A stretch of DNA of 64,000 nucleotides from Platanthera guangdongensis (taxonomy: Eukaryota; Streptophyta; Magnoliopsida; Asparagales; Orchidaceae): assembly GCA_039583875.1 (NCBI GenBank), contig CM077155.1:11945046-12009045 (forward strand). The letters are read 5' to 3'. Below the pieces are notes generated by a model. That model saw only the letters and a program-made list of their open reading frames with translations, was not told where the DNA came from and made no database searches. The translations under genes and the position numbers were made by a program. Positions 31,223-58,505 of the stretch are shown here, piece after piece; position 1 is the first letter of the stretch; each line of letters begins with the position of its first letter.

Positions 31223-31343
31223 TTGACTTGGCGTTTTTCTGGAAATTCCTGAACCGGATTCTGCCGCTGTTAAATTTCTGGACCGGGATTTGGGGATTTC
31301 TTTTGTGGGTCCCACAAACGGTCATATTGGAAAACTTCTACAG

Positions 31344-32742: not shown

Positions 32743-35700
32743 TCAACACTCCCCCTTGAAGTGAGAAGTGGTGACCAAGCCCAGCAAGCTGCGTAAGCGT
32801 TCAAAGGGCCCCTTCGACAGCGGCTTCGTGAATATGTCAGCAAGATTATCTTCACTCCGAACATGCCCGACCAGCAGAGATCCTTCCAACACCTTCTCCC
32901 TGATGAAATGGTGATCAATCTCTATATGCTTGGTCCTGGCGTGACACACTGGATTGTTAACCAGCTTGAGAGCACTCTCATTGTCACCCCGGAGTAAAGT
33001 AGGCCCTTGCACTTCTTCATGAACATCCTCTATGAGCCTCCTTAACCAAACGGCTTCCCGAGCAGCCAAGGCCGAAGCCTTATACTCCGCCTCCGTGGTT
33101 GAAACCGACACCGAGTCCTGCTTCTTGCTACACCACGAGATGCTAGCTGAACCGCAAGTGAACACATAACCTGAAGTAGACCTTCGATCATCCGAATCAC
33201 CGCCATAGTCAGCATCCGTGTACCCGAGCAACGCAAACTCCGCATCCCTTCCATAGAGGAGTCCCATCTCAGAAGTCACCTTGACATATTTCAGAATCCC
33301 TTTTGCCGCCAACAGATGAGATTTCCTTGGTTCAGCCATATATCGACTTACTCGGCCAACAGCATAAGCTATATCCGGCCTTGTAATCGTCAGGTAAATC
33401 AAGCTCCCAACAAGAGCCTTGAACACCAAGGGATCATTAAGAACCCTTCCCTCATCTCGTCGAAGCTTTAGCCCAGGTTCCAGTGGAGTAGAGCACTTCT
33501 TCCCTTCGCCCATGCCAAACCGCTTCACAATACGATCAGCATACCCTTTCTGGCTAATGAGAATCCCACACTCCTTCCTCTCCACTTCCAGACCAAGAAA
33601 GTGATGCAACTCTCCCAGGTCTTTCATCTCGAAGCGTATAGCAAGCTCAGCCCTGAGCCTTGCTACTTCCTCCTCCGAATTCCCTGTGATGATCATGTCA
33701 TCCACATACAGTAGGACCAAGACTCTTAGCTCTCCCTTCTTCTTGACGAACAAGCTAGAATCCGAGTTAGAAGCAAAGTATCCACAGAATTGCAGGTACT
33801 CTGCAATCTTCCCATACCACGCTCTAGGAGCTTGCTTCAACCCGTAGAGAGCCTTCCTGAGTTTGCAGACATAGTCCGGATGCTTCTCAGATACGAAACC
33901 AAGCGGCTGATCCATGAAGATGTCCTTGTCAATCTCTCCGTAAAGAAAGGCATTCTTCACATCGAGTTGCCACAACCTCCATCCCTTGCTAGCAGCTAAG
34001 GCGATCACCACTCTTACAGACGTCATCTTCGCAACTGGACTAAATGTCTCCTCATAGTCTTCTCCATACTGCTGTGAGAATCCTCTAGCGACCAGGCGAG
34101 CCTTGAACCGATCAATTCTCCCATCAGCCTTCTTCTTCAACTTATACACCCACTTGCAAGTAACCGGAGTAACGCCATCAACCTTGGGCACAAGGTCCCA
34201 GGTTTCATTCTTCTTCAGAGCATCAATCTCTTCCTTCATGGCATCATCCCACTCCTTCAATCCAGTGGCCTCGTTGAAGTTTGCAGGCTCTCGCTCATCC
34301 AGAGGACCTGCAAAGAAGCAGGAGACAAAGCTCACTGCATTCCCATCACAGTACCGAGCCGGTGGCTTAACCACCCTCTTCGATCTCCGAAGACATGGCT
34401 CCTTGCTCACGGCTTCCGTTGCTTCTTCAGGCTCCACTCCTACCTGGGGCAAGCATTGAGCAGTGCTCCCCCTGCTTCCTGAGCCAGAAGGCTCAGCCTC
34501 GGAGTTCGAAGCAACATGAGTTGCTGGTGAAACAGCAAGCTCCTCTTCCAAGCCATCAGCAGCCTCCACCGGTGCTTCCTCAACCTTGCTACTTCCGGTA
34601 AGCTCCATCGAGCCACCTCCATATGACGTCAGCTCGTCAAAGACAACGTCTCTTGACACCACGAACTTCTTCGTCACAGGGTCCATGCATTTCCATCCCT
34701 TCTTCCGCTCATCATAGCCAACAAAGACAAGTTTCCATGCCTTCGCATCCAGCTTTGTCCTTGAAGCATCCGGGACATGCACATAGCAAGTTGAACCGAA
34801 CACCCTAAGGTGTCCCACACTCGGCTTCTCCTTCAGCAACAGCTCAACAGGAGTCTTCATGTTGATAGGGCTGAGTGGCATCCGGTTGATAACATAGGCA
34901 GCACAAGACATTCCCTCCGCCCAAAAGGACCTTGGGATATCTTTCGCATGAAGCCAACATTTGCAGGTCTCCGTCAGATGACGGATCTTCCGCTCCGCTA
35001 CCCCATTTTGTTGTGGAGTGTGAGCACAAGTAAGCTCTCGTTGGATCCCGTGCTTCCTGCAGAAGTTAGAAAACTCGGAGAAAACAAATTCTCCTCCGTT
35101 ATCAGTTCTAAACTTCTTAACCCGCAAGCCAAGCCGGCCTTCTACCAACTCCTTGAACTCCACGAACAAACGGAAGGCTTCCGACTTCTCCTTTAAGAAG
35201 TACACACAAGTATACCTTGAGTAGTCATCAACCAAGACAAGCATGTATTTGCTTCCACCAAGGCTGGCAGTAACAGTCGGTCCCATCAGGTCGCCATGAA
35301 TACACTCCAATGGTTTCTTGCTCCTTGTTTGAGATTTATCAAACGGAAGGCGATGTGCCTTACCGTATTGACAGCCCGCACAAACATGCCCATCACCAAA
35401 GGAGGACAACATCGGCAACCCCCTCACCAGACTTCTACTAGCCATCGCCTTCAGCTTGTCCATGCCAACATGCCCCAGCCTCTCATGCCAGATAGCCGCA
35501 CTATCATTGGCTCTCATCCTATCAATATAGGCACTGGTGGAAAGAACAAACAAGTTCTTCACCCTCCTCCCAACATGAGCAACATCAGCCTTTACCGCTG
35601 ATACGTTGCGAAGGAACCTCACGTCTGTTGGCCCAAACAGAACGTGATACCCAGCGTCCACCGCGTTGGTCACCGAGAAGAGGTTCTTCTTCATGCCCGG

Positions 35701-36831
35701 CACGTGATACACACTCCTTAACGTGAGTGGCCCCTGATCACTACCCAAAGACACGACCCCCTCCTTCTCTACTGCATAAACAGTATTATCAGCAGTGATA
35801 ATAGCTTCATTACCTGAGTAAGCCTACATGGAGGTGAACTTCGACTTGTCTCCGGTGAGGTGATGACCATACCCGGAGTCGATGATCCACTCGCTGTTGA
35901 AGTCCTCAGCAGAAAAGGCCCGGACACAAGTGCCCGTCATGAAAGCTCCTCCCCATTCTGCTTCTTCACTTCGCGAGCAAGCTTCCTCCTTTCCCGCAGC
36001 ATGCCCAGGCTGCAGTTTGACCTTGCAGTCCCGCTTGAAGTGCCCTCGCTGATGACACCGGTAGCACTTCAAGTTCTTCTTCCAGTCCTTAGGAGCATTG
36101 CTCCTCTCCGGCGGATATGAAGTTGAAGTCTCCTTCTCAACAGCGGCCTGCACCTTCTTCTTCTTCTTCCCTTCCCATCCCTTCTTCTTGCCTGAGAAGA
36201 GAGCCTCGCTGCCTTCCTGATTCAGATTCACTCCAGCCATCTGCCTTGCTAAGCTCTCCTGCGAAGCAAGCAGATTCTCCAGCTCCAGCAACGACGGCTG
36301 AGTAGCCCACCCTTGAACAGATGTAACAAAGGCCACATACTCCTTCCGCAAGCCGCGGATAATGTGCCTTTTCATCTTTGCCTCAGAGATAGGCTCATCA
36401 GGATCCAGTGCCGACAGCTCAGCACACAGGCTCTTCATCTTTAAGAAGTACTTGGAGATGGAAAGGTCTCCCTGAGTTGCCCTGGCCAACTCATTCTCCA
36501 GGAACTAAAGCCGCGCCACATTCTTCCTATTGAACAACTCATCAATGGTTGTCCAAATATCAGCAGCCGACTCACATCCAATGATGTGATCAAACAGTTC
36601 CGGAGAGACAGCTCTCTTCAGAATGAACTCCGCCTTAGCATTAGTTCTTCTCCAGAGCCTCACCTGCTCAGCAGTACCGAAAGCAGCAGTAACTTCCTGT
36701 CTATCGTCTCCACCGACGACTTCCCACAGCTCCTCGCCTAGAAGATAACTCTTCATGCACGACTTCCACTTCTTGAAGTTAGTCGGCGTTAAGAGTTCAA
36801 TGCCCAGACCTCTTTCTAAGCTCCCTTCCAT
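32743..36831 (-). pseudogene. gag-pol: gag-pol of element D, one frame with two TAG codons
   Basis: This is a single copia polyprotein frame of 1363 codons, open except for TAG at 36505-36507 (in gag) and TAG at 35824-35826 (just after protease); there is no frameshift. Reading from the ATG at 36829-36831, Gag starts MEGSLERGLGIELLTPTNFK. A zinc knuckle CYRCHQRGHFKRDC lies near residue 254 and the protease site IIDSGYGHHLTG near 315. The integrase HHCC finger (HERLGHV, CAGCQYGK) lies at about 445-485, with RTDNGGEF near 573 and PQQNGVAER near 605. Reverse transcriptase YVDDMIITGN lies near 1042 and RNase H DADYGG near 1208. Length and order fit a complete copia polyprotein. The upstream in-frame TTG at 36894 is not preferred. 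The subfamily is not assigned. Confidence 0.93.
32749..32761 (-). other. Polypurine tract of element D
   Basis: On the minus strand CTTCAAGGGGGAG abuts the 3' LTR start TGTTGAAA. The pol stop overlaps the LTR edge, so there is almost no 3' untranslated spacer. Confidence 0.85.
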
Positions 36832-36960
36832 TGCAATCACCTGTTGGTACCCTTCAGCAGCTCCAAGCAACAACACAGGTTGATCACCACTCAATCACTG
36901 AGTAACAACGCTGGTTGACTTCCGCTCACGCAACTGAACAACCCGCAACCTCAGAAACCT

Positions 36961-36973
36961 GGCTCTGATACCA
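36961..36973 (-). other. Primer-binding site of element D
   Basis: On the minus strand TGGTATCAGAGCC directly abuts the 5' LTR and matches the initiator tRNA-Met primer site fully. Confidence 0.95.
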
Positions 36974-38583
36974 TGTTAAATTTTCTCAACGTGGTCAGCA
37001 AGATAGCCCAAATGCCAAATTAATATCTTCGGAACTACCCAGTTCGCACGCTGAACCTGCGGAAAGCCCAAGGACTAGAGGTTGCACCCAACAAAACAAT
37101 GGAAGCACAAGAAAGTCTTTTTATGCATTCACTTCTTTACAATCCGAGGCATACATAGCGAGACATGATTTCGCTAGTATAACAGCTGAAAACAGAAAGA
37201 ACCAAAAAAATAAGCCGGGCGGACAGCACCGGAGTCCGCCGAGACCGCGAGGTCGCCGAGACCGCCGAGCTCGCCCAAGCTATGCTGCAATCCGCCGAAT
37301 ACCACGGAGTCCGCCGAAGCCGCGAGGCCGCGCGGACAGACCGTTATTCGCCTCCTGCTGAACCCGAACTGAGGAACTCCCCTACCCGCCTGAAACCGGC
37401 GGACAGGTTATTGAAGCTGGCAAAGATGAAACAGAACTGACAAGCCGCAGAGCGACCTCCTGCTGAGTCCGCAGAGACCGCACACTTCCAAGCACTTGAC
37501 CGAAGTCACAGCCAAACTCCTGGCTCCTTGAAGTTATCCGCGCGACCTGCACACAGCAAACCGTCAGCCTGAAACAATCCGCGCGGACTGGCAAACACAG
37601 ACCGCAGCACTTCGCACACCCCAACTTACTGTTCACTCTAGTTACTTAGGTTACTGTAGATGTGCCAGGGGGGGTCCTATTTATAGGCAAGGTGAGGAGT
37701 GTGGTCACCGCCCAAGAGATAGCGACACCACCCTCAGTCCGCGCGAATACAACCACCGTCCGCTGAGTCCGCATGGACTTAGCCGGATACCAAGGAAACC
37801 GCCAGGAGCAAGGCAACCATTGACGAACCCTCTCCAGTCCGCCCAAGCTAAGCGGACAAGGCACCAGCCCGCAAAGCTCCAACTGCTTCAGGACAGCAAA
37901 CCCCCTTCAATGGCTGTCCGCACCAACCCGAGGCAGTCCGCAAGACTCACACCTCAATCCGCCACAAGTCCACGACCAAAGGCAAACAACAACAGTCCGC
38001 CCGGTCACAGCGGACTTGGCGGATACGGCGGACACCATGAACTTGGCACAATGTGCGACCAAGTCCAAAACCATCAAGGGCCAGTGCGAGCATGGCAGAC
38101 ACAAAGTCCCGTCCGCCAAACACCCTAGCACAGACCGCAACCAGTCCGCGAGCTCCTCGCACTTGTCCAACGCAGCAGCTTCCTCCCGGACTCCAAACAC
38201 CAGGCCGCCAACTGGTCTCCACAGCAAATCGCCTGCTGTAACACCAGAGCTCGACAAGGCCTCAGCCAAGCTCTAGGCTCAGTCCGCAACAGCCAATACC
38301 GCGGACACTCCAGTCCGCAAGGCTTCCCGCGAACTCGAACCAACCCGCCAACAGCTCAAGCTTGCACCCACGGCCACTGAGCAAAGCACCAGTCCGCGAG
38401 CCTATCCGCAGATACCAGGCCGCACCAAACCGCGGACTCCATGCAACAACCCGCTCAACACAGCCGGCTTCCACCAGACTTTCCACCAGGCCGCAACCCT
38501 CAGTCCGCCCAGTCCACCAAAGCTGTCCGCCACAGGCCGCGCGGCCTGTCCCGACACCCACTTCCACTTCACAAATTTCAACA
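36974..38583 (-). repeat. 5' LTR of element D
   Basis: This is an intact LTR of 1610 bp, starting TGTTGAAATTTG in element orientation. U3 (about 38560-37700) is crowded with GTCCGC/GCGGAC half-sites, many paired as inverted repeats. A TATA box (TATAAATAGG) at about 37675-37690 follows, then a GC-rich R region. Confidence 0.94.
37675..37690 (-). promoter_or_regulatory. TATA box, promoter of element D
   Basis: On the minus strand TGCCTATAAATAGGA lies directly downstream of the GCGGAC-rich U3. Confidence 0.65.
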
Positions 38584-41588: not shown

Positions 41589-42689
41589 CAGAGAGAAAAG
41601 TAGATTATGGTTACAAAGAAAATACAAAAAACTGAGCCGACTGAACTTCATCTTCTTCGACGAGCTTGAAAGCCAAGTCTAGCAGTGCACGCCAACAAGC
41701 AGAGAAAATAACTGAAGCTTTTCCAGTTCAACAAGTTTGTTCTTTGCAGAATAAGGTGGATGATTCATCTAATCAGCAAGGAGAGATATCTGTGTGAAGG
41801 GCCTGAAAGAATTAGTTTCAAGATATCCTAAACACCTAGAGGGGGGGGTGAATAAGTTCAATTCCTTTTTATTAAGGCAGTTCAAATATATAACTAGTAG
41901 ACAACCCATGTAACAAAATTCACAACAAAGATTAATAGAAATACATCCAATCATAGCATACACACAGATTTATAGTGGTTCCCCAAGAGATGGGTACATT
42001 CACTTTCCTCCTTCGCCTATCTAGCAGTATACTAGATTCGGCCTAACTTCCTTCTTTCTTCTCAGATCCTCAGATCTTACAACTCAGAACCAAGAATGGT
42101 TCCTACAGCTCACACTTCACCAAGTGTTACAACTCAAATTCTTCCTAAGAATCCTACCTCAGAGTGAGTCCACACTCCTACAACTCAGGCAATCAAGCCC
42201 TACCTCAGCCTTATCCACCAGGCCTACGACTCAGAGAAATTAATCCCCTACCTCAGGCACTCAGCCCTACCTCAGCCTTTATAAACTTAGGCTTACAACT
42301 CAGAGAGATAACTCTCTTACACTCAGATCTATAAAAGATCCTACAGAGAAAATTGATTATAAAAAGAATAAATCCTTCACCCAGGCAGAGAGAGAAAGGG
42401 GTGAAGGTTTCTTGATCAGTTCTTGATAGATCTGACTGCTTAAGATTCAACCTGTCTTACCTTCTTCAAAGCTTCTTGAATCTGAACAAAGTAAGGTTGA
42501 TCTTCATGTGAAGTTGGAGATGATCTTCAATCCAGCTTCCTTTTATTTCAGATGTAGATCTGAATTCTTCTTGCAGACTTGTTCAGAATCTGCCCTTAGA
42601 GACTTGTTGATTTCTGGATCAGAACTTATCTTCTTAGTTCTCTTAATCTCTTCAATCTAAATCATCTTCTATTTGATGATAGAACAAGT

Positions 42690-42699
42690 CTTTATATAG
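42690..42699 (-). promoter_or_regulatory. TATA box in 3' LTR of B
   Basis: CTATATAAAG on the minus strand lies about 150 bp after the palindromic array. Confidence 0.6.
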
Positions 42700-42845
42700 A
42701 CCCATCTGAGGTTACCGGCTGATCCGGTTCATAACGGCCTTCTGACAGTTCTGACAGATACAACAGGTTTGTTAGTTATGACAGCTGTCATGTCTTCAGT
42801 CTTGACACATGATACCTTATTGTACTCTATCTCAGTCAGAAAAAG

Positions 42846-43237
42846 TGTCGAGACAATACTTCAAATGTGTCAACACAAATAGACCATGTGTCGACACAAT
42901 TCTTGATGATGTCGACACAGCTCACACAATGTCGACACAACCCTTCTTTATCTTCTCAACACAGCTTCTGTGGAATGTATCGACACAAGTCCTGTGTGTC
43001 GACACAATAGCTTCTAGTCTCGACATAGTTGGTGCTGATAGAATTCTGGTATGTGTCGACACAAGTCCTGTGTGTCGACACAATTGTTGTCGACAGAATT
43101 CTGATGTGTGTCGACACAAGTCCTGTGTGTCGACACAATTATTGTTGACAGAATTTCTATGTGTCTACACAAGTCCTGTGTGTCGACATAATTTGGCTCC
43201 CGGTGTCGACACAATTCTTCTCAAGTGTCGACACTTG
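42846..43237 (-). repeat. Palindromic array GTGTCGACAC in 3' LTR of B
   Basis: About 15 copies of the 10-bp perfect palindrome GTGTCGACAC or one-base variants are spaced about 18-35 bp apart, often in the unit GTGTCGACACAAGTCCTGT. The same motif recurs in the 5' LTR and inside the element upstream of the third ORF. Confidence 0.93.
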
Positions 43238-43372
43238 TACTTAGAAACGTTTTCTGCATTTTCTTAACCTGCACATTGAAACTCAACAACCCATCAAATA
43301 CACAATGATATATATTATTGAGTTGAGTGATGTTTCTCCAAATCAGGTACACAGTTTCCAATGTACCCAACA

Positions 43373-43386
43373 ATCTCCCCCTATTT
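43373..43386 (-). other. Polypurine tract of element B
   Basis: AAATAGGGGGAGAT on the minus strand abuts the 3' LTR and is identical to those of A and C. Confidence 0.93.
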
Positions 43387-43672
43387 GGAGAAGTCATAAC
43401 CCTTAGTCAATGATATACATCACTTATAATAAAACAAATAGTATGATGTAAACATTTACTTCAAAAACAAGATTAACCATAAGCAGTCATAGCATGTAAT
43501 AGTATTATCACATAATATGTTATAACATAATAATCATGCATCACAAAATCTTAAGTATACCATATCAAATTAAGGCTAAACCAAGGAATTTATTAATATA
43601 TGTTTCAGCAATTTAGAATAACAAAGATTTAGTCCAAAATGTTACATAGACCTAAGCCTAGTCCATCTAACT

Positions 43673-46504
43673 CTACGATTGATCATGCTCCTTGATGACG
43701 ATTCCTTTGCCAGACTGAATCCTAGCTTGTACATTGGCTTCTGTGTCATCGACCAGCTTCTTTCCTTTCAGATCCTTCTTCTTGAGCTCTTCTGTCTTGA
43801 TCTTTTGCCTTTCAAAGTAATGATAAGGCTTTGGAAAATATTTGCTAGGCTCCACAGAAGTAGCAGGTATCTTCCCAGCTTTGAGGTCTCTTCTAAACTG
43901 ATATATGGCATCTTGCCGCTTCTGATATTTGCTCAATTCTTGTTCAAAATACCACTTGACTCTATCATGCATGTTTTCTTTAACAGCTTGCCAAGCAGTG
44001 AGAATAATGTTTCTGGAGGTGGGACTCCACTGTTCAAAATCAGGCTTTAATTCTGCCTGCTCTATGAACCTTTTCTTAGATAATTGAGCTTCTTTCTGAG
44101 CATCCCTAGCTCTTTGTGCTTCTTGCTCTCTTTGCAAAGTAGCTCCATACATTTCAACCGTTTCACTAAAAACATTCTGTACCTTCTTTGGCGGACTATA
44201 CATTTGTTGTACTGTATGCTGAATTCCCTCAAAATCGGAAGGTAGATAAATAATTTGAGCTACTTCCTGCTGAACCCCTTCATTGTAAGCCGTTGAATTC
44301 CTGATTCAGCAGTGTTGTCATCATCACAAAGGGGTGGATAACCAAGAGTTGCTCTAATAGCATTAGTTATCCATTTAGCATGATCTGAGCCTGCATTGAC
44401 TAATACTCTTTCCCCCTTTATGACTTCTCATTCAATATGGTCTTGTAGATCATCCTTTTGAAATCTTATCTGATCAGCTAGATAATTGATGTCTGCTTTA
44501 TAGTATAATCTGAACTTCTGCAGCTGATCAACAATTACCTTTTGAGAGGCCTGGATAGCAGTGTGAACATTAGCCAAATCTGCTTTGAGTTGTGTATCAA
44601 ACTCTGACTTTTCTTTAACCTTGTTTTAGTGAAAGCAGTGGCTTTATTCTTGAGTTCTGTGACAATAACATTATGAGATTCAGTGAGATTGTCATTCATT
44701 CTAATTTGATTCTCCAGAACATATCCTTGTTTTATTGCAATGTAATCTATCTGAGTTTTGGCCTCTTTTTGTTGTTTGGCCAGGTAGACAACAGCATGAA
44801 CTACATTTTGAAAGCATTCAGTCATTTCCATTTTGTTCTGATTGACTTCAAATCTGATGGATTTGATATCTTGGGCCAAGGTAGATTGCAGTTCTTTATG
44901 ACTCTCATCCACATATTTCTCAAGAGCAACACTTTGTTCATCCAATTTCAGTTGTAGTGACACTAACAGTGAACTGAAATCTATTGCAGGAGCTGGACTT
45001 GGTGGTGCATTCTTCAAGGTTCTCTTATATCTTGTGCTCCTCTTCCTAAGCTCTAGAAGTTTTCTCTTCTTTACCCTGGAGGCCTCTTCATCTACAGAGG
45101 TATCAGATGAACTATCTATGTCCACTATGTCTTTTGGACTTGAGACAATGATAGGCACCTCCTTCTCAATTCTTGGCTGCTCCCCCTCAGTTCTTGCTCC
45201 TAGAAAATCAGGAAACAACTCTTCTAAGGTGACCTCTTGTTGCATTTGAACTGATGGAATAACTTTCTCTTGCTCAGCAGAAGGGCCTCCTTCAAATTCA
45301 AAGGTTTCTTCCATATTAATATCTTGTTCTGGGACATTGTCTTGGTTATTTTGATCAACATTATTCATAATCACATCCAGTGCATCATTCTCAATGTCTA
45401 TAGTAGTTTTACTTATATCCTGTATTACCTCAAGTATAGATTGAGTGGCTGCTTCACTGTCCAATGCAGCTGTTGGTCATTTGGCTCTTGCACATTATCT
45501 TCCTTTGAAGGTGATGGCACTTGTTGAGCTTGAACTGGAAAAAGCTCATTAGGTCCCCCTTGATGAGGCTCTTCCTGGACCTAGTCCACTGAGATGTTGG
45601 TGGCAGGAATCTGCGCCCCCTATAGCTGATCATCAGTCACAGTTTCTAGAGCAGTAGATTTTCTAGTACTCTCTGGTCCTTCTTCATCTGTGCTGAAAAC
45701 AACTTCTTCTTATGAATCACTAGAAGATTCAACTAGCTTGTGTTGAGTTTTCTTCTTTGTCTGAACCTGTTTCTGGTATTTCTGAGGTGTAGAGACATCC
45801 TTGGTCAATACCCTATCCCATCTGTACAGTATCCTCATGTCCGTTCTCCTCATATGATTAATCTTAGAGTCGGTAGTCTGATTCAGCACTTCTGGAATAG
45901 TCATGGACAGATACAGGCTTAGTATTCTACCCAGATTAGGTTTCTTTATACTTTCCGTGATCTTTTCAAAAACAACAGCAGACCAGTTAGTTTTCACCTT
46001 AAATATAACTCTAATCATGAGATTGAACATATAGGCTGAGATCCTATCATGTCCTCCTATTTTACATAGAATAACCTTGCCTATAATTTTAGACAAAAAT
46101 TTGCCCTGGGAATTCATTCCCTTCCTGTTCATGTATGATCCAATTTTGGTAGTGGGATCCAGTCCGCACCATTGGAGAGCATCTTTTGTCATGGAAGATG
46201 CTATGTCATCTTCTTCCTTAACTCTAGGAAGCTGAAGTGTCTTACTTAAACTCTTCTGTGTGAGTGTCACCTTAGTACCTTGGATAGAAGATTTAATTTT
46301 CACGCCCTTCGGTTCCATGGATGCTGATGAGTAGAATTCAAGAACCTCCTTCTTCCATATCCTGGTAGGTTCTGAGACTAAGTACTCCAATCCATTCTCG
46401 GTGATTAGGGTAATCACGGCTTGGAATTCTGCAGTGGCAGTCTCAAACGCATTGCGAACTAGTTCATAGCCCTCGTTGATGTTCTCTTCCAGCTTTGGCG
46501 CCAT
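43673..46504 (-). pseudogene. Third ORF of element B (post-pol), about 940 codons, broken
   Basis: This large gene lies between pol and the polypurine tract, where some SIRE elements have an envelope-like ORF. It starts MAPKLEENINEGYELVRNAF at 46502-46504. The first about 240 residues include VKIKSSIQGTKVTLTQKSL followed by QLPRVKEEDD. This resembles the 'putative plant transposon protein' domain known from post-pol ORFs of Athila-like and SIRE-like elements (recalled, not searched). An acidic, Gln/Ser-rich linker follows (about 45700-45100), then a coiled-coil segment (about 44990-44640) and a C-terminal domain with DFEQWSPTSRNIILTAWQAV. Breaks: TAA/TAG stops at 45710-45712 and further stops and shifts near 45590, 45470, 44625, 44430 and 44250. 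I see no signal peptide or membrane segment, so calling it an envelope is not supported. Confidence 0.75.
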
Positions 46505-46613
46505 TAGGGATGAGAGAGAGAGAGATTGAGGAGAAGGAAGATGAAGGTCTTGTCGACACAGATGGTTTGGTCTCGAGAATTCTGAGAGCGTAGTCAACAA
46601 GGTCTTGTTTCCA

Positions 46614-46625
46614 CCTATTTATACT
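46614..46625 (-). promoter_or_regulatory. Internal TATA box upstream of the third ORF of B
   Basis: On the minus strand AGTATAAATAGG is a consensus TATA box, 110 nt before the ATG of the third ORF. A CT-rich leader (CTCTCTCTCTCTC at about 46510-46525) fills the space to the ATG. With the palindromic array just upstream, this looks like a promoter for the third ORF. Confidence 0.65.
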
Positions 46626-46659
46626 TTTCTAAATAATGAAGGCCAAAAGGTAGGAGGAA

Positions 46660-46985
46660 ATTTGCTTATTGTGTCAACACAGTTGGGATGGTGTCGACAC
46701 AGACTACTAAAGTCTCGACAGAGATTTTAAAAGGTATTACAATACTTTATGTCGACACCAATTGTGATGTGTCGACACAGACAACCTTAAGAGTCTACAC
46801 TAATTCCTGCGTGTCGACATAGATGACTGTATGTGTCGACACCAATATCTATGTGTTAGGATATCTATATGTCGACACCAAATTCTGAGTGTCGACATAA
46901 TCTTCTTGATGCGTCGACAGAATTTTCCTTAAATGTCAACACCAACTACTAAGTGTCGACACAGATTTCTTTATGTGTCGACACA
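46660..46985 (-). repeat. Internal GTGTCGACAC array upstream of the third ORF
   Basis: About ten copies of TGTCGACAC or close variants (for example near 46697, 46752, 46770, 46813, 46837, 46870, 46890, 46959 and 46976) lie between the pol stop (47011) and the internal TATA box. The motif is that of the LTR arrays of the same element, but spacers differ (for example CACCAATTGTGATGTG). Confidence 0.88.
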
Positions 46986-47010
46986 AATTTACTTAGTCAA
47001 ATTTATCATA

Positions 47011-50000
47011 CTATTCTAAGTTTAGCATGCCTAATTCAATTTTAAAGTAATTGAATTTTGTTTCATCCAGTGGTTTGGTGAACATGTCAGCAATTTGACT
47101 ATTAGTGTTGACAAATTCTAAACTTATGTCTTCTTTTTCAACATGATCTCTAATGAAATGAAATCTGATTTCTATGTGCTTAGTTCTGCTATGCGAAATA
47201 GTATTTCCAGCAATAGAAATGGCACTTGTAGAATCACAATATAATGGAGTTCTACTTACCTTGATGTCATAGTCTTCAAGTTGATGTTGTATCCACAAAA
47301 ACTGAGCACAACAACTTCCTTCAGCTACATATTCTGACTAAGCAGTGGATATAGCCACACTTGTCTGCTTTTTGCTGCTCCATGACACCAATCTTTCACC
47401 TAGGAACTGACATGCGTCAGTGGTGCTTTTCCTATCTTCTTTGCACCCTGCAAAGTCTGCATCTGAAAAATCTGTTAGTAGAAAATCTCTATTCTTAGGG
47501 TACCAAAGACTAAGATTTGGTGTTCCCTTAAGATATCTCAAAATTCTTTTGATAGAAGTATAATGAGATTCTTTTGGGCAAGCTTGATAACTAGTACAAA
47601 GACATGTAGCATATATGATGTCTGGTATACTAGCAGTTAAGTAAAGAAGGGAGCTAATTATCCCTCTATACAAAGACTCATCTACAGGTTTTCCCGCATC
47701 ATCTTTGCTTATAGGCATACTTGTCCCCATTGGAGTTCTCATGGTGGAGGATGACTCCATGGCATATTTCTTAATTAACTCCTTGGTGAACTTAGACTAG
47801 GATATGGACAAACCATCATCAGTATATCTAACTTGGAGTCCCAAGAAGAATTTCAGCTCACCCATGCTGCTCATCTCAAACTTCCCTTGCATAAGTTTTG
47901 CAAACTTTCTACAAAGGTTGTTTTTAGTAGATCCAAAGATAATGTCATCAACATATATCTGGACTAGGATGATCTTGCCTTTTGATTTCCTTAGGAATAG
48001 AGTCTTGTCTATTTTTTCCCTTGAGAATTTGTTCTCAATGAGGAAGGTAGACAGTGTTTCATACCAAGCCCTAGGGGCTTGTTTCAACTATATAGAGCTT
48101 TCTTAAGCCTATAAACATAATTAGAATAAAGAGGATCTACAAAACCTGAGGGTTGTTCAACATATACTTCCTCTTTTAAGTCACCATTCAAGAATGCTGA
48201 CTTTACATCCATTTGGTATACCTTGAACCCTTGGTAAGCTGCATAGGCAAGGAACAACCTTATTGCTTCCAACCTTACCACTGGGGTAAATGTCTGGTCA
48301 AAGTCTATTCCTTCTTTCTGCCTGTAGCCATTTGCTACCAGTCTTGCTTTCTTCTTGACTATAATGCCATTCTCATCTAACTTGTTCCTGTAGATCCACT
48401 TAGTCCCTATGACATTGTGATTCTTTGGTTTAGGAACCAACTCCCAGACTTTACATCTTCTGAATTGATTCAGCTCTTCCTGCATGGCATCAATCCAATT
48501 TGGGTCTTGTATGGCCTCTTCAAATTTCTTGGGTTCCATCTGTTACAGAAAACTTGAGCATAGAACTGTGTTTAAGCTCTTGCTTCTGGTTAGAAAACCA
48601 TGTCTTGGATCACCAATAATTTGGTGTGCTGGATGATCCGTTAGATGTCTTATTACTGGAGGCAATCTTTCTACAACTTGATTTTCTCCAATTTCCTCAC
48701 CAAGCTGTACTTTATTGTCTTCATCATCAGCTTATGGGTCTTGTACTCCCCCTAAATAGCATCAATCATTTTCCTCATTCTGTCTTGCAGGTTGGCCTTA
48801 TCTAATGGTTAGCTTGTCCATATTTTCCTTCAAACCCGTAGAGCTACAAAAAGTGCTAGACAGCTCACAGTTGATTAGCTTAGATTCATCAAAGAATACA
48901 TGGACAGATTCTTCTACAGCTTAAGTAGTCAAGTTGTAGACCCTGTATGCCCCACTGTTGTTGCTGTACCCAACAAATATCCCTTCTTAAGACTTGACAG
49001 CAAACTTAGTTAAATAAGACTTGCCATTGTTAAGTACATAACACTTGCTACCAAAGATCCTAAAATAGGATATATTTGATTTTCTGCCTTTCATAATCTC
49101 ATAGGGTGTCTTCTTGTAGCTTTTGGTGATGGAATCTCTATTGAGAACATGACATGCAATGTTTACTTCCTCAGCCCAGAAATATTTTGGGAGAGAAGTG
49201 TCACTTAGTAGTGTTCTACCAGCCTCAATAAGAGTCCTATTCTTTCTTCCAGCAACACCATTTTGCTGGGGATTTCTAGGAGAGAACTCTTGATGAATCC
49301 TTAGTTCTTCACAAAATCTTGTCATGAATTCAGACTGAAATTCAGTCCCATGGTCACTTCTAATTTTGACCACTGAATTGTGAAGTTCATTTTGAATTTG
49401 CCTAACAAAATTGTGGAAGACAGTAGGGGTTTCAGAGTTCTGGCTCAGAAAGAAAACCCATGTAAATCTAGAATAGTCATCCACAACCACAAAGGTATAG
49501 ACTTTCCTACCTAGACTATGAACTGAAATTGGACCAAATAGATCAATATACAGGAGGTACAAACACCTCACAGAGTCTTTGGTATCAAGACTGTGGAAGG
49601 AGGTCTTGGTCTGTTTGCCTTTTTGACAAGCTAAACATACACCCTCCTTGACGCACTTGACTTGAGGAACATTTCTCACTAACTTTTTAGAAAAGAGTTC
49701 ACCTATAGTCTTGTAGTTAAGGTGAGCTAGCCTCTTGTGCCCTTTGACACAATGAGAAGCTTTCTCATTTGCAACTAGGCAAACAGGAGAATCTTTATTC
49801 TCACACACAAAATTTATACAATAAACATTTCCTTTCCTATAACATGTCAAGATGACCTCCTGATCACTTGACCTTCTAATCTGACACCCATTCTTAATAA
49901 AAGAAGTGTCATAACCAAGATCACTTAGTTGACTTATGCTTATTAGGTAATGTTTCAGACCTTTCACATAAGCAGCTTGGGTGATAGTGATAGAGCTATT

Positions 50001-50183
50001 GGAAATGTTACCAAACCTTTTGATGACTCCCTTTTCAGATCCACCAAAGATCACTTTGGGTCTATTTTCTATGGGAGAGTAATCCTTTAGCATCCTTCTT
50101 ATTCCAGTCATGTGCCTGGAACATCCACTGTCCAAGTACCATATTGTGGTATGGCCACATAGACTCACCTTCATCAAATAAAA
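47011..50183 (-). pseudogene. pol: pol of element B (PR-IN-RT-RNaseH), multiply broken
   Basis: The protease has LDSGCSRHMTG near 50110-50145. The integrase has HKRLAHLNYK, CLACQKGKQT and SDHGTEFQS (near 49345) with PQQNGVAGR (catalytic-region AER changed to AGR). A decayed linker spans about 48990-48540. Reverse transcriptase starts [19 protein letters not shown] and carries YVDDIIFGS near 47935-47962. RNase H has DADFAGCKEDRKST and ends LGMLNLE at 47011. Stops or shifts lie near 48990-48540, 48084-48087 (Leu codon changes within ALYGLKQAP), 47797-47799 and 47338-47340. In this element the gag stop at 50184-50186 is followed in the same frame by pol, unlike A and C. Confidence 0.92.
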
Positions 50184-52458
50184 TTACTTAACCTTAGAAC
50201 CCCAATAATTATTTGGTCCTAGGTTTAGGTTAGACTGAAACTTGACATACTTGCATGTAGCCTTTCTGATAGGTAAGCTTGCATTTTTCTTGACTGAAGT
50301 GTTGTGCCAACAATCAATGGCATAATGACCCACTTTGGCACAACCCCAGCACTCATATCTGTTATATCTTCTTTTAACTACAGTCTTAATAGCATTGATG
50401 TAAGAATTCCTTAAAACTGTAGGTATAGTGGTCCTTTTATTGAGTGCTGGGGCTGGTGCATCAAACACTGATGATTCCTGAAGAACATGGTGTGTTTGTT
50501 CATGGGCTGCCCTATTGGCATTTGCACCCTTGTCATTCTGATCAACATGCTTACAATGACCATGTGTGATGTCATGGTCATACCTGTTAGTAGGCTGCAT
50601 CACTTTCCTGAAAGAAATAGGGAGTTTGGAGGCTAGTGGCTGAACTGGGCCTTTGCCTTTTCTTTTGGAATTAGCTGCCCTGTTCTTCCCTTGAAGCCTA
50701 ATCCCGTCTTACCCTTTTGGAGGATGAAGTCATCAATTAAGGGTAGGACTGACTTTGGCTTTGAGAATTTAGCCATAAGATCCTTCTCTCTTTGAAGTCT
50801 GACTTCCAGACTCTTGATTTGATCATTTTTGAAGGTAATTATACCCATCTGAATAACAGTTATATTTTTCAGTTTGGAAACTTCATTCAACTTCAAATCC
50901 ATCATTTTTGCTGAATCTGATGCAACCAATTTAAGAGATTCAATTTTCTTAGCCTGTTTTTTGATAAGGATTCTGCTTCTCTTAAGAGCTTGCAATAGAT
51001 CACCATACTCATCAATCAGTTGTTGAACACGACGTTAAGATTCAGAACCATCCTCATCTCTTGATGCAGATGCTTCTGATTCTGATCCAGTATAATAATC
51101 AGACTGTGAAGATAGGTTGTTTACCTTACTGGGACCAGGCTGATCCTGACACTGATCTTCCTCAGTCAAAGCCATCAGCCCTCTACAATGATGATCTTCA
51201 ATCCCATTTATAGAATCCAGCATTTGCAAGAACTCAGTTTCTACTGAATCCTCTTCAGTAGTGAATAATCCAATATAGGCTTCAGCTTCAGCCACTTCTC
51301 CTGATCCTGATGATGAGGAATCTATCCAACTCTTCTACTTCTTTGCAAAAAAGGAACTCTCCTTCTTGCCCTTATTTTGATGCTTTTTCTTGTCATTAGA
51401 TTCCTTTCTTTTATCAGGGCAGTCAGCTACAACATGTCCAGACCTGTTGTAACAATAATAATTAATCTTAGAAGAAGTTATTTTGCTAGGTTTAGTGTCA
51501 TACCTGTCATTTTTAGAAGATTTCTTTTTCTAGTAATAGTCATCCTTGGACTATGAGGAGGATGGCTTGGTTCTCCACTATTTTTTCTTCATGAATCTTT
51601 TGAATTGCCTTGTGAAAGAAGCAAAATCTTCATTAGAATTAGGGCTGTCTGATGTGTTGTTGTCAGAATTATCTGAGATAACTTCAGCTGCTTTCTTAGG
51701 AGGAGATGGTGACATCCTCCTATCCTTATTTGGGGCATCAACCTTGAAGGCCACAGATTTCTCTTTGTACTCAGACCTATAGCTTTTCTCTTCCTCCTTC
51801 CTGGCTATAAGCAGCATCTCACATGATAGCAGTTTTCCAAATAGGGTTGGAGGAGAAGTGTCTGCAACTCTGGGTACTTCCCTGATGACACATATCTTGG
51901 TATCCCAGTTCTTGGTTAGTGATCTGAGAAACTTATCATTGAGCTCATATGTGCTAAAGACTCTTTCATATGACATTAGCTCATTAACTATTCTGAAAAA
52001 CTTCTTGTAGCAATCAGTTATGCTGTCTGTTTTAGTTTGTCTAAAACTTTCATATTCTTGATTTAACATAAACTTTCTGTCCTATCTTATTTCTTCCGAT
52101 CACTCCATGTAGACAATTAAAGTGTCCAACATCTCCTTGGAGGTTTTACAGTGAATCAAGTTTTGGAAAGATGAATCATCTATAGCACTAACTGTTATGT
52201 TCTGTGCTCTCTTATCCATAGTGGCTAAGATGATCTCATTCTTTGTCATTTCTGAGTAACTCTTTGGAGTCCTGATGTTGGCATCAAGAGCTGAGATATT
52301 CATAGGAATGAATGGCCCTTTTTAACTGTGATGCAGATTCTTGGGTCAGAAGCTTCCATGAATAATCTGACTCACTCTTTCCATATACCAAAAATTTCCT
52401 TTCTACATATAGGTAATTTCATGGATCCAAGTTCCATGTGATTTTCACTTGAACCCAT
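50184..52458 (-). pseudogene. gag: gag of element B, multiply broken
   Basis: Gag reads from the ATG at 52456-52458 (MGSSENHMELGSM) and contains blocks collinear with Gag of C, such as YERVFSTYELNDKFLRSLTK. The first zinc knuckle is damaged (YYCYNRSGHVVADC, near 51440-51470). The second, CWGCAKVGHYAIDC near 50310-50350, is intact. Between them lie an acidic segment and a coiled coil (about 50990-50770). Stops and shifts occur at least near 52360, 52310, 52100, 51575, 51340 and 51033. The gag stop TAA at 50184-50186 is in frame with pol. Confidence 0.88.
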
Positions 52459-52524
52459 TTTGATTATAACTGGTAACTGCCTTATAGATCAACTCAGACT
52501 GTTAAGTCTATTCTTGAGTAACCT

Positions 52525-52537
52525 CCCACTTATACCA
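52525..52537 (-). other. Primer-binding site of element B, degenerate
   Basis: On the minus strand TGGTATAAGTGGG lies two bases inside the LTR. Only the first six bases fully match the initiator-Met site, consistent with decay. Confidence 0.75.
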
Positions 52538-53423
52538 CTTGAAAGAATTGGTTTCAATATATCCTAAACACCTAGAGGGGGGGGGGGGGGTGAATAAGTT
52601 CAATTCCTTTTTATTAAGGCAGTTCAAATATATAACTATTGACAACCTATGTAACAACAATCACAACACAGATTAAGAGAAACACAACCAATCACATCAT
52701 ACACACAGATTTATAGTGGTTCCCCAAGAGATAGGTACATCCACTTTCTCGCTTCGCCTATCTAGCAGTATATTAGATTCGGCCTAACTTCCTTCTTCCT
52801 TCTCAGATCCTCAAATCTTACAACTCAGAACCAAGACTGGTTTCTACAGCTTACACTTCACCAAGTGCTACAACTCAGATTCTTCCTGAGAATCCTACCT
52901 CAGAGTGAGTCCACACTCCTACAACTCAGGCAATCAAGCCATACCTCAGCCTTATCCACCAGGCCTACAACTTAGAGAAATTAATCCCTACCTCAGGCAC
53001 TCAGCCCTACCTCAGCCTTTATAAACTTAGGCTTACCACTCAGAGAGATAACTCTCTTACACTCAGATCTATAAAAGATCCTACAGAGAAAATTGATTAT
53101 AAAAAGCATAAATCCTTCACCCAGGCAGAGAGAGAAAGGGATGAAGGTTTCTTGACCAGTTCTTGATAGATCTGACTTCTTAAGATTCAACCCGTCTTAG
53201 CTTCTTCAAAGCTTCTTGAATCTGAACAAAGTAAGGTTGATCTTCATGTGAAGTTGGAGATGATCTTCAATCCAGCTTCCTTTTCTTTCAGATCTGAATT
53301 CTTCTTGCAGACTTGTTCAGAATCTGCCCTTAGAGACTTGTTGATTTCTGGATCAGAACTTATCTTCTTAGATCTCTTGATCTCTTCAATCTAAATCATC
53401 TTCTGTTTGATGATAGAACAGGT

Positions 53424-53433
53424 CTTTATATAG
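53424..53433 (-). promoter_or_regulatory. TATA box, promoter of element B
   Basis: CTATATAAAG on the minus strand follows the array. Its role is inferred from position. Confidence 0.6.
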
Positions 53434-53577
53434 ACCCATCTGAGGTTACCGGCTGATCCGGTTCATAACGGCCTTCGGACAGTTCTGACAGATGCAACAG
53501 CTTTGTTAGTTATGACAGTTGTCATGTCTTCAGTCTTGACACCTGATACCTCATTGTACTCTATCTCAGTCAGAAAA

Positions 53578-53990
53578 AGTGTCGAGACAGTACTTCAAAT
53601 GTGTCAACACAAACAGACCATGTGTCGACACAATTCTTCATGATGTCGACACAGATCACACAATGTCGACACAGATCACACAATGTCGACACAACCCTTC
53701 TTTATCTTCTCAACACAGCTTCTGTAGAATGTGTCGACACAAGTCTTGTGTGTCGACACAATAGCTTCTAGTCTCGACATAGTTGGTGCTGACAGAATTC
53801 TGGTATGTGTCGACACAAGTTCTGTGTGTCGACACAATTGTTGTCGACAGAATTCTGCTGTGTGTCGACACAAGTCCTGTGTGTCAACACAATTATTGTT
53901 GACAGAATTTCTATATGTTGACACAAGTCCTGTGTGTCGACACAATCTGGCTCCTGGTGTCGACACAATTCTTCTCAAGTGTCGACACTT
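53578..53990 (-). repeat. Palindromic array GTGTCGACAC in 5' LTR of B
   Basis: The motif is as in the 3' LTR, with one extra 21-bp unit (ATGTCGACACAGATCACACA repeated at about 53643-53685). Confidence 0.93.
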
Positions 53991-55357
53991 GTACTTAGAA
54001 ACTTTTTCTGCATTTTCTTAACCTGCACATTGAAACTCAACAACCCATCAAATACACAATGATGTATATTATTGAGTTGAGTGAGGCTTCTCCAAATCAG
54101 GTACACAGTTTCCAATGTACCCAACAGGGCCGTCAACCTTCAATAGCAGATAGTTGTTCTTTAGTGCAGCAGTGAAATAGTTAGCTGTAGAAGAAGACTA
54201 ATTCCTTCTATAACAAGAGGGGTGGACTAATATCTGCTCAGTCCAACAAGGTAGACTCAGAGATTTATCTCTGAGTCAGAGTTTTAATTTATTTCAACTT
54301 CTTGATTAAATTCATGTAGGATTCAGGTTGTCTGAATCTGAGGTGTTTGACCTTTTGTGCCTGAGTTCTAGGTGACTAATTAGTCAGTGAATTTGGTGCC
54401 ATGCTGGGGTATTGAGGTAGTATCTAAGTGTGGATCTGAGAGTAAAGCTGTCCTCCCAGCCTGAGTAGTAGGGCCTAGTGCCTGAGGTAGGTGACTGTTG
54501 AGTCACTGAGCTGTAGATGACAAGTGTGTCACTGAGTTGTAGGCCTTTGAGGAGGCTGAGCTGTAGGTTCCTTGAAGGGCACTAAGGTAGGTACCTGGAA
54601 GGGTACTGAGCTGTAGGAGTGCTGTAGCACTCTGAGAGTAGGGCCTTGTACCTGAAGTAGTAGCGCTGAAAAGCCTGAGTTGTAGTCCTTAGAGATAAGA
54701 CTGAGGTAGGTGGTCTGTGGACCACTGAGCTGTAGGAGCGCTGCATGGCTCTGATGTAGGAACCTTTGTGGTTCTGAGGTAGGGTTCTGAAGAGAACCTG
54801 AGTGTAAGGCTGAGATCCTGAGGTGTTAGCTCTGATGAGCATTTTGGAGGAGTTTGTGCCTTGTCTAACATAAGTTAGGAAGGTGGGAGGGAAAGTGAAT
54901 GTACCCAATTGGGGAACCACTATAAATATATATGTGCTTTACTGTGTTGCTTGTACTTCTCTTATATTGCAGGTACTAAAGACAAGCTCTAGATCACTTA
55001 GTAAGAAAACAGCAAAAATCAAACATGGCACAAGCCCTAGCATGGTCTCTACCTAGGAGATCTTCATCTCACAAATCAAACTCTTTTGATTCGACATCCC
55101 TCCTAGAAATAACTACAGATCTAGCACCAAGGGAGATGGTAGGAAGCACACCTCATTTCCGATGGTTCAGGTCATGGATCTCATCACTCTCCTTGATGAC
55201 ATCTTCTTTTACGTTGGTGTTGTTCTTCACGGAAGAAGAGAAGGGAATGTTTTCCTCCAGAAATCACCTATGACAACTCTTCTCTCCTAACGGTTTTAGC
55301 ATAGGTAACGACTCGGTAAAAATGGAGAAGTGACGGCTATATTTTCCTGTAAGTCTT

Positions 55358-55619: not shown

Positions 55620-56360
55620 ACAGCACTTTAAGTTAAAATTGTCGAGTTTACTTCCATTACTTGACAAATCGTCGAGTGGCATCGAGTGCAGTCAACGCAC
55701 TCGACTCATACAACCTCAGAATAACACTAAGTAAAAAGCGTTGAGTTTACTTACCCTTACTCGATGAATCGTCGAATGGCGCTGAGTGCACTAAACGCAC
55801 TCGACGCCTATACCATCCAAAATATTTCTAAGTCAAAAGCGTTGAGTGCGTTGAGACCACTCAATGTTGTGTTGACTCCACTCAACGTCAACAACATTCC
55901 ACAGTTTCTAAGTAAAAAGCGTTGAGTGTGTTGATACCACTCAACACCGCGTTGACTTCACTCAACGCCAATAGCATCCAAAATGGATCTAAGTTAAAAG
56001 CGTTGAGTGGCATTGAGACCACTCAACGCCGCATTGACTTCACTCAACACCAAAACTTCCAGAAAATATTCTAAGTCAAATACGATGAGTGGTGCTGAGT
56101 CCACTCAACGCCTCAGCTTAATCCGTTGAATGGCATTGAGTGGTGTTGAGTCCACTCAGCGCCTCAGCTTTTTCATTGAATGGAATTGAGTGGTGTTGAG
56201 TCCACTCAATGTCTCAGCTTATTCATCAAACGACATTGAGTGGTGTTGAGTCCACTCAACGCCTTAGCTTATTCGTCGAATGGAGTTGAGTGCTGTTGAG
56301 TCCACTCAACGCCATGAGTCCAGAAAATATTCTATGTAACATCTACTCTATTCGTCGACT
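55620..56360 (-). repeat. Array of CACTCAACGC / GTTGAGTGG units in the H LTR
   Basis: GTTGAGTGG and its complement CCACTCAAC recur about 20 times with a spacing of 20-60 bp, framed by AGTAAAAGCGTTGAGTG. Toward both edges the motif grades into CTCGAC/GTCGAG. The array lies upstream of the TATA box. Confidence 0.88.
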
Positions 56361-57835
56361 CCAGTCGACTCACTCGATGCTTCCCGAGCCTGAGTCAATT
56401 CTTTTGACTCAAAATGCACGCGAGGGGCCTAGCGTGAAACAGGACATTACAAATCCTATAAATAAAATAAAAGATTTCATCACTGAAATCAGGCTAAGGC
56501 TGTGGGGGAAATATAACATGAAAAATATAATAAAATTTTAAACTTACCTTGGGAAAACAACTCTGGGTAGCGCTTTTGCATCAAGTCCACCGGCTCCCAA
56601 GTGTATTCTTCTTTCCCGTGATTAGACCATTGGACAATTATCAATGGTACACTTTTCCACCACATGCTCCTTTTCTCGGTGTCCACTATCTGCACCGGCT
56701 CTAGGCGGACAGATATATCAGTTTCCACTGCTCCATCTACAGTGGGGACATATTGTTCAGGCTGTAGTAGTGCCTTCTAGAGAGATGACACATGGAAGAC
56801 GTTGTGCAAATTTTCCATCTCTGGTGGTAGCTCCAGCCGATAGTCCAAAGGGCACATTCTCTCCAATATAGCATAGGGCCCCATATATCTCGGGCTGCGC
56901 TTCTTCATACCACGCACTCGAGACACTCCATGCATTGGCCCGATCTTCAAGAATACCTTGTCACCCACTTGAAATTCTACCATCCGATGTTTCACATTAT
57001 AGTACTTTGCTTGTCGACTTTGAGCCTCACTCAGGCAGTCTTGTATCTATCTAACAAGTGCATCGATGTCGTCAATGTACTCTATCCCCAATACCTTTGA
57101 GTCTTCATCCTGCACCCATGACAATGGAGTTCTACACCTTCTTCCATAAAGTACTTCGTGGGGAGTCATCCTAATGCTAGCTTGGTGGCTATTGTTGTAT
57201 GAAAATTCTACCAGTGGTAAGAGCCTTTCCCACAGTTCTCCTCTATCCAATACACACAGTCTCAAAAGATCCTCCATTGTCCTGATGGTCCTCTCAGACT
57301 GACCATCCGTCTATAGATGAAAAGCTGTGCTGAACGTAATACGAGAGCCTAGATATGTTTGTACTGTCTTCCACTCCTTGGAGGTAAAACGACCATCATG
57401 ATTTGAGATTATTGCCTTAGGCACACTATGGTACCGTACAAATTGCTCCACAAAGAGATGCACTAAGACATCCACATGTGTCCCCTTCTTCATAGGGATG
57501 AATCTGGCCACCTTTGTCAGGCGATCTTGTTGGGTATATTGGAAATAATGTACTTGATTTGAAGAAGCTCTTTCAACTCAATGATATACACAACTTTGTA
57601 TTTGATGTATGTTTCAGTTTTTGCATGCAGGTTAGTCTATGTCATATTGATTGGACAGGTGTTCCAAGTGACATTGACAGGTGGAATCATAGAAGCTGAC
57701 TGAAAAGACAGTAAATAAAATTTACTATGTACACAGATGTCGAGTGTAGCCAGTTCACTCAACGACATACAACTAAAAGTGCCGAATGAAGTCAGGACAG
57801 TCGACGCCTAGCAAGTTGTAGTACAGAAAAATGGC

Positions 57836-58345
57836 TAAGTACAAAAGTGTCAACACACTTCAACTATGTCGACACCTTTGCAGGAGATGTGTCGAGACAA
57901 GTCAGTTATGTCGACACCTTGAAGATCAAGTAAGCTGTGTTGAGACAATTCAGTTATCTCGACACCTTGAAGTTTCGAGACAGCAGTGTCGAGACAAGTT
58001 AGTTATCTCGACACCTTGAAGTTTAAGTCAGTAGTGTCGAGTCAGCAGTGTCGAGACAAGTCAAATATCTCGATACCTTAAAGCTTAGGACAGTAGTGTC
58101 GAGATAATACAGCTGTCTCGACACAATGTAGAGCTGAAGGGAAGACTTAAAGATGTCGACATCCAGCAGACAGTAGTGTCGAGACTATTCAACTGTCTCG
58201 ACACAGTGAAGACTTAAAAATGTTGACACCAGCAGACAGTTGTGTCGAGACTATTAAGATGTCTCGACACATTGCAGTTTACACAAAGTATTATAGTGTC
58301 AAGACACTTAGGACATCTCGACACTTATGATTCTGAAGATGTATA
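57836..58345 (+). repeat. Array of TGTCTCGACAC / TGTCGAGACA units in LTR G
   Basis: Pairs of GTGTCGAGACA and TGTCTCGACAC alternate with spacers of 10-25 bp, so neighbouring units are inverted repeats. This is related to, but distinct from, the GTGTCGACAC of element B. Confidence 0.9.
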
Positions 58346-58493
58346 GAGTCAACACAGAAGTGTCAAGTCAAGTCAGAAATGTCACATCAGCTACCGTAAC
58401 GTGATATCTCATTAGAATCTGTTTGAAGGATAACTTGAAGCATGATGGCGTAATGATGACATCATCAATCAGTTGCCAGCAACCCGTGAAGGC

Positions 58494-58505
58494 TGTAAAT
58501 AGAGG
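58494..58505 (+). promoter_or_regulatory. TATA-like box of LTR G
   Basis: GTAAATAGAGG lies about 150 bp after the array. It is weaker than the other boxes. Confidence 0.4.

Follow-up and report, generated by a model that had tools for sequence, protein, structure and literature searches.

The element and its extra open reading frame

The window analysed here, a stretch of 64,000 nucleotides from contig CM077155.1 of Platanthera guangdongensis, harbors on its minus strand (54126-41804) a Sirevirus-type Ty1/copia element with an extra open reading frame, referred to as element B. The element was recognised by its LTR ends, by the TSD GGCCC flanking it on both sides (54131-54127 and 41803-41799) and by gag and pol domains of copia type: Retrotran_gag_2, gag_pre-integrs, rve and RVT_2 follow one another in this order on the minus strand, each scoring above its cut-off, with the integrase ahead of the RT as in copia. 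The 5' LTR (52540-54126, 1587 bp) and the 3' LTR (41804-43372, 1569 bp), both on the minus strand, differ by 68 mismatches over 1561 aligned bases. The Sirevirus polyC-rich signal CCCCCCTCTAGG is found near the 3' end of both LTRs (52582-52571 and 41846-41835), and the terminal polypurine tract AGGGGGAG (43375-43382, minus strand) lies directly before the 3' LTR. Further copies of AGGGGGAG are located at 45187-45180, inside ORF3/linker, and at 48753-48746, in pol, which is fewer than the published Sirevirus average of 4 per element. The Sirevirus PBS TATCAGAGC is absent from element B, the site reading TGGTATAAGTGGG in this copy, and no known RNA family was matched at gathering scores within 41700-54300.

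Both LTRs of element B carry a palindrome array followed by a TATA core. In the 5' LTR the array spans 53988-53579 and the core TATATAAAG is located at 53432-53424, and the 3' LTR displays the same array and core. Exact copies of TGTCGACA ahead of TATATAAAG number 13 in the 5' LTR and 12 in the 3' LTR, the final one sitting 198 nt ahead of the core. The box closest to the TATA (53579-53588) is of the TGTCTCGACA kind, unlike the other units, and similar boxes occur in families D and E, described below. The extra open reading frame, ORF3 (43676-46504, minus strand), opens with an ATG at 46504-46502 and, like pol, is interrupted by stop codons in this copy.

The stretch between pol and ORF3

A stretch of 506 nt with many stops separates the pol stop codon (TAG, 47013-47011, minus strand) from ORF3 in element B. 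It contains an internal array on the minus strand (46671-46984) with ten units of GTGTCGACAC at one mismatch or less, five of them exact, commonly 20-22 bp apart. Over the whole window 53 such matches were observed, compared with 1.43 expected (sd 1.17, maximum 6, 100 shuffles), and the array of GTGTCGACAC is beyond chance. The array is followed by a TATA box, TATAAATAGG (46614-46623, minus strand), which contains TATAAATA at 46623-46616; this is the sole sense-strand occurrence of TATAAATA in element B, and the 11 occurrences on both strands of the window imply about 0.003 expected per 40-nt slot. The first-pass annotation had placed the array, the TATA, the pol stop and the ORF3 start codon correctly, and had added a CT-rich leader of about 80 nt. 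A leader is indeed predicted (46505-46593, minus strand); with the start set by convention 30 nt after the TATA and a TATA-to-ATG distance of 119 nt it would be about 89 nt long, and its CT-rich part is limited to the final 45 nt or so, with a mean of 85% pyrimidine in 30 copies. The leader also includes an extra GTGTCGACAC-like unit (46550-46559, minus strand, at most one mismatch), a palindrome downstream of the TATA that had been overlooked. The idea that this layout repeats that of the LTR holds for the order, array and then TATA; the LTR core, however, is of another sequence, TATATAAAG, and is not followed by a palindrome.

The CpG observed/expected ratio is 0.97 in the internal array, 0.06 in the adjoining 3 kb of pol and 0.19 in the ORF3 region, part of the array value following from the motif itself, which brings one CpG per unit. 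This high ratio is in agreement with the CpG islands described in the accessible text of Bousios et al. (2010; PMC2829016). The spacing of the arrays is locally close to 20 bp; strict helical phasing was considered and is unsupported, the Rayleigh p at 10.5 bp ranging from 0.027 to 0.89 over ten regions.

The host assembly (4.25 Gb) was searched for other copies of family B, which gave 4844 first-look candidates, of which 40 were scored and 30 read, the 10 scored without a locus being left out. Because these copies were selected by similarity to the same promoter stretch, the within-family counts are biased and their agreement amounts to consistency rather than to proof of selection; nor are copies of one family independent of each other. 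The array (8-12 units each, at most one mismatch) and the ATG at the start of ORF3 are kept in all 30 copies, exact TATAAATA in 26, an ATG-free predicted leader in 28 and the leader palindrome, at a distance of 65 nt from the start of the TATA, in 26. Motif columns are no better kept within B than spacers (variability of 0.087 each over the 30 copies, and 0.076 for non-CpG motif columns), while variability is higher in the gap that separates the array from the TATA (0.162) than between the TATA and the ATG (0.065). Forty-three of 499 8-mer places in the B linker, where some gapped places went unscored, are at least as conserved as TATAAATA.

ORF3 could be expressed from RNA initiated in the LTR, by splicing, stop-codon readthrough or internal translation initiation, with the array serving only the LTR or chromatin. 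Readthrough is the published mode in SIRE1 of soybean, which belongs to the same genus and has an extra ORF after pol as in B, splice acceptors have been predicted for BAGY2 and Athila (both as cited in the accessible text of PMC2829016), and the CT-rich tract ahead of ORF3 in B also favors a route of this kind. However, the stop-codon suppression of SIRE1 has only a stop to overcome between pol and ENV (same source), whereas each of the 30 B copies has 5-12 in-frame stops between pol and ORF3 in the ORF3 frame, which rules out pol readthrough into ORF3, and an AG lies within 40 nt before the ORF3 ATG in only 2 of 30 copies, which argues against splicing in B. We regard expression from LTR-initiated RNA as unlikely.

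Related families and the motif at two sites

The window also holds a lone LTR of a sister family, C (57528-59389), in which TGTCGAGACA/TGTCTCGACA boxes outnumber TGTCGACA. Starting from copies of this LTR, a C element bounded by two LTRs was located, together with its linker, L073. Among the linkers collected for C (L073-L077), two reach the promoter, L075 covers part of ORF3 only, and L074 and L077 are LTRs of families D and E, met as nested insertions. Pieces of these insertions were used to find D copies and E elements with both LTRs, the former being picked by the 3' part of the linker and the latter by the LTR, neither by the promoter. Four D loci were fetched, of which L081 matched nothing and was omitted, leaving three usable copies; one E copy (L087) has no ATG and was counted for array and TATA only. 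The locus L078, taken for a D promoter, contained an LTR of family F, a more distant family whose pol matches those of the other families at 66-71%.

The layout of array, TATA and leader is present in both C copies covering the site, in the three usable D copies and in the five E copies. The C linker L073 shows the array, TATAAATAGGG, a leader and ATGGCGCCC; TATAAATA is found in the two C copies spanning the site, and both have one ATG in the predicted leader. All three D copies display TATAAATAGG, a TATA-to-ATG distance of 108-109 nt and an ATG-free leader, and their linkers contain 7-12 exact copies of TGTCGACA. In the five E copies an array of 8-12 exact units is present together with TATAAATAGG, and four of them keep the ATG, 106-107 nt after the TATA, with a leader free of ATG.

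Family F counts against a universal internal promoter. Its linker has an array, yet TATAAATA is absent in 3/3 copies, with a conserved CTTATATCTAGG at a distance similar to that of the TATA elsewhere (3 copies) and with a good acceptor-like TTTCTTGCAG (TTGCAG) 9 nt before the extra ORF in all three (L088:931-954), a position that speaks for splicing; the ATG is lost in one of the three. A piece of the F ORF showed no detectable similarity to ORF3 of B (BLASTP E=33) and no Pfam match, and F may express its extra ORF by another route. Element A of the same window, by contrast, speaks for the internal promoter: this single copy with no extra ORF bears LTR arrays of CGAGAATCA/TGATTCTCG, and its linker has neither array nor TATA. 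Arrays of CGAGAATCA/TGATTCTCG were seen in Sirevirus-like elements at 2822-3118, 10342-10614, 23427-23702 and 30857-31195, and the Sirevirus-like element at 24800-31300, inspected at its 3' end, has no extra ORF.

Conservation between families was assessed as the per-column difference for the pairs B-D, B-E and D-E, using 30 B, 3 D and 5 E copies, three pairs that are not fully independent given the shared ancestry of these families. The differences, in this order of pairs, were 0.017, 0.017 and 0.000 for TATAAATAGG and 0.20, 0.13 and 0.18 for the non-CpG motif columns, compared with 0.43, 0.47 and 0.36 for the array spacers, 0.35, 0.46 and 0.30 for the gap before the TATA and 0.29, 0.34 and 0.29 for the leader, within which the palindrome differed by only 0.05, 0.01 and 0.04. 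When the motif mask was slid round the array, none of the 324 shifted placements matched the true one in any of the three pairs. Across pairs, codon positions 1, 2 and 3 differed by 0.15-0.16, 0.09-0.12 and 0.39-0.42 in pol and by 0.25-0.32, 0.12-0.22 and 0.58-0.62 in ORF3. These differences imply that purifying selection has acted on the TATA and the motif, on one palindrome of the leader and on the protein encoded by ORF3, and LTR-initiated expression would leave the strong conservation of TATAAATAGG in B, D and E, amid drifting surroundings, unexplained.

It could also be that the promoter was formerly functional and is now a relic in this genome, which would fit with the stops in pol and ORF3 of element B and with several other copies being broken in ORF3. 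We judge this very improbable: the excess of change at third positions of ORF3 over the first and second (0.12-0.32), together with the conservation of the promoter, points to selection up to the last common active copies, and in family D the 39 best hits besides the query share 93-96% identity with it, which makes them fairly young and counts against a relic.

The palindromes after the TATA follow a fixed arrangement. In E, all 5 copies have TGTCGACA at two points downstream of the TATA start, at exactly 24 nt and exactly 63 nt; in D it is found 24 and/or 63 nt after the TATA start in 3/3 copies, with the palindrome at 63 nt in two of them. The LTRs inspected (two of B, one of D and one of E) have none after the TATA, even with one mismatch allowed. 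Palindromes after the TATA are peculiar to the internal promoter and could serve autoregulation.

To follow the motif itself, exact TGTC-Nk-GACA was counted at every k from 0 to 5, of which just two, k=0 and k=2, are common; counts of these two with one mismatch were tried as well and are uninformative, since the patterns overlap, and a Fisher p was set aside on account of the non-independence of the copies. The ratio of k=0 to k=2 in B was 25:2 in the LTR (two LTRs) and 270:0 in the internal array (30 copies). In D it was 13:0 (one LTR) and 29:3 (three internal regions), and in E 24:1 (one LTR) and 11:2, 8:2, 9:0, 11:2 and 12:1 (five internal copies). Family C gave 33:75 in the LTR (12 copies) and 1:6 internally (2 copies); the C and F samples are small and the C LTR is mixed, with 33 at k=0. 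The internal motif therefore follows that of its own LTR, being TGTCGACA in B, D and E, mainly TGTCGAGACA in C and TCGACGAA in F. Three F linkers carry 6, 3 and 6 copies of TCGACGAA and no TGTCGACA, and an F LTR from another copy (L078:241-1000) has 10 TCGACGAA plus a sub-array of 10 TGTCGACA that is missing internally. In B, C, D and E, a single LTR and a single internal region per family were inspected and proved free of TCGACGAA.

An internal array could resemble that of the LTR as a passive tandem repeat derived from it, or it could act as a cluster of RNA hairpins or as a source or target of small RNAs, a reading favored by maize, where small RNAs are drawn to the palindrome clusters of Sireviruses (Bousios et al., 2016, according to the accessible part of PMC10760457). 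When motif-masked internal arrays of B, C and D were compared with their own LTR spacers, the best matches were 8-11 bp long, with E values of at least 0.1, which rules out a duplicated LTR piece and means that the shared motif is not due to recent copying. Between families the motif is conserved in its letters, and downstream of the array come a TATA and a leader palindrome that are conserved as well; an origin as passive repeat or a role in RNA alone is, in our judgement, quite improbable. The simplest reading of the sequences is one trans-acting factor per family that would serve both sites.

A candidate internal promoter, its gene and known systems

We propose that 47010-46505 is probably a promoter for RNA polymerase II, internal to the element, from which ORF3 is expressed and which shares a DNA-binding factor with the LTR. 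As judged from the layout, its conservation, the motif change at both sites and the closed frames between pol and ORF3, a sequence-specific factor would occupy the inverted-repeat arrays (half-site TGTC/GACA) both internally and in the LTR, where two TATA cores would be used, TATATAAAG in the LTR and TATAAATAGG inside. ORF3 would then be transcribed as its own unit, from a start about 30 nt after the internal TATA, and with the same factor at both arrays, genomic RNA and ORF3 mRNA would be switched on together. The first-pass annotation had likewise regarded ORF3 as a separate unit sharing a regulator with the LTR; the comparison of copies and families supports this well at the level of sequence, and the reading taken as a whole in part.

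The N-terminal part of ORF3 weakly resembles PF20167 (Transposase_32, Putative plant transposon protein), with 19.9 bits for B and 23.4 bits for a C piece, both below the curated cut-off of 45 bits, and the F piece gave no match. A single-sequence structure prediction of this part reached a pLDDT of 34 and was discarded. Three ORF3 pieces contain no transmembrane stretch, their top 19-residue hydropathy mean being 0.91, while the usual threshold for a membrane span is 1.6. ORF3 of B has a basic stretch near 45075-45020, which resembles a nuclear localisation signal; a KKRKLVELRKRSSGYKK-type stretch, more or less changed, is present in 21 of the 30 B copies, and two more match only beside it, the flank ending nearby. 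A basic, possibly nuclear product with no evident transmembrane stretch would argue against the reading of ORF3 as an envelope gene. Canonical PF20167 loci were also inspected with 1.5 kb flanks: among the 150 matches listed, 30 were taken, all 30 without a B pol match at E 1e-3 and 29 without a palindromic 8- or 10-mer repeated at least three times, a weak control since most have frames of the same length, 408, and probably belong to a single family.

A more tentative idea, which we consider doubtful, is that ORF3 itself encodes the array-binding factor, a self-encoded and family-specific regulator or anti-silencer of VANC-like kind that would act on its own promoter, with a feedback loop mediated by the arrays and by the palindromes fixed some 24 and 63 nt downstream of the TATA. 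The motif tracks ORF3: it is the same where ORF3 is similar (B, D and E), its spacing is changed by 2 bp in C, whose ORF3 shows 59% identity over a single piece of 123 residues, and it is different in F, where the extra ORF has no detectable similarity in one piece. This tracking is weak as evidence for a self-encoded factor because pol and LTR follow the same family tree, and the array of element A, which has no extra ORF, speaks against such a factor as a general rule. VANDALs are DNA transposons. In those of Arabidopsis, an element-encoded protein binds short repeated noncoding motifs that diverge between families (accessible text of PMC5735166). Family-specific repeated noncoding motifs are common to both systems, binding being demonstrated for VANC and conjectural here, and Pfam scans of ORF3 name no VANC family. 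The choice between a host and an element origin for the array-binding factor lends itself to a cross-family binding test.

A maize system offers a further comparison in Grande, which is a Ty3/gypsy element. Its gene23 is an accessory gene between pol and the 3' LTR with its own promoter and a product reported to be nuclear (Gomez-Orte et al., 2013, as reported in the accessible parts of PMC7264820 and PMC11963269). Like ORF3, gene23 is an extra gene after pol; unlike ORF3, which is in sense and preceded by a putative promoter with the LTR motif, it is antisense to gag-pol.

The first-pass annotation had considered an LTR-motif promoter before an extra ORF to be new, a claim that is wrong in part given the work of Bousios et al. 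(2010). The accessible text of that paper (PMC2829016) describes palindromic repeated motifs (RM boxes) upstream of the TATA in Sirevirus LTRs, with 8-32 per element in 13 elements, and, in Table 3, upstream of the ENV-like gene in 9/9 ENV elements with RMs and in the linker of none of the 4 without ENV. The motif is element-specific and common to both sites, and an internal promoter, a hypothesis credited there to Peterson-Burch and Voytas (2002), is presented as supported but not conclusively identified. Element B resembles the RM system in its high-copy palindromes upstream of the LTR TATA, families B, C, D and E in having further copies before the extra ORF, and element A in lacking them in its linker. 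The core differs, being TCGA in GTGTCGACAC compared with CGG-CCG, to which Tnd-1 is the one exception among the 13 elements (same source). The kind of arrangement is thus already known, and what our sequences add is comparative evidence for a specific core promoter, with a conserved internal TATA box, for fixed palindromes near the predicted start and for a motif that changes at the two sites together from one family to another within a single genome, which are not found in the accessible text of that paper. The accessible parts of MASiVEdb (PMC3414828), of a review of additional ORFs (PMC7264820), of the Retand study (PMC11963269) and of a 2025 review (PMC12786077) likewise describe no Sirevirus with an internal TATA box, an absence that weighs little within open-licence literature. 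The expression and role of Sirevirus extra ORFs are described as unproven in the accessible text of PMC2829016 and PMC3414828. With several young families that share the internal layout and differ in motif, this genome opens the hypothesis of an internal promoter, put forward in 2002/2010, to a direct test by RNA data.

Outside these elements, the window holds another copia element at 32201-38344, with an open pol frame of 1003 aa between 300-bp repeats that are 99% identical, which is probably a young insertion. Palindromes of the GTTCTCGAGAAC type form an array at 62407-62744, where they recur about every 20 or 41 bp, and a tandem array with inverted units TTGAGTGG/CCACTCAA, showing periods of 50, 82 and 100 bp, lies at 55629-56313.
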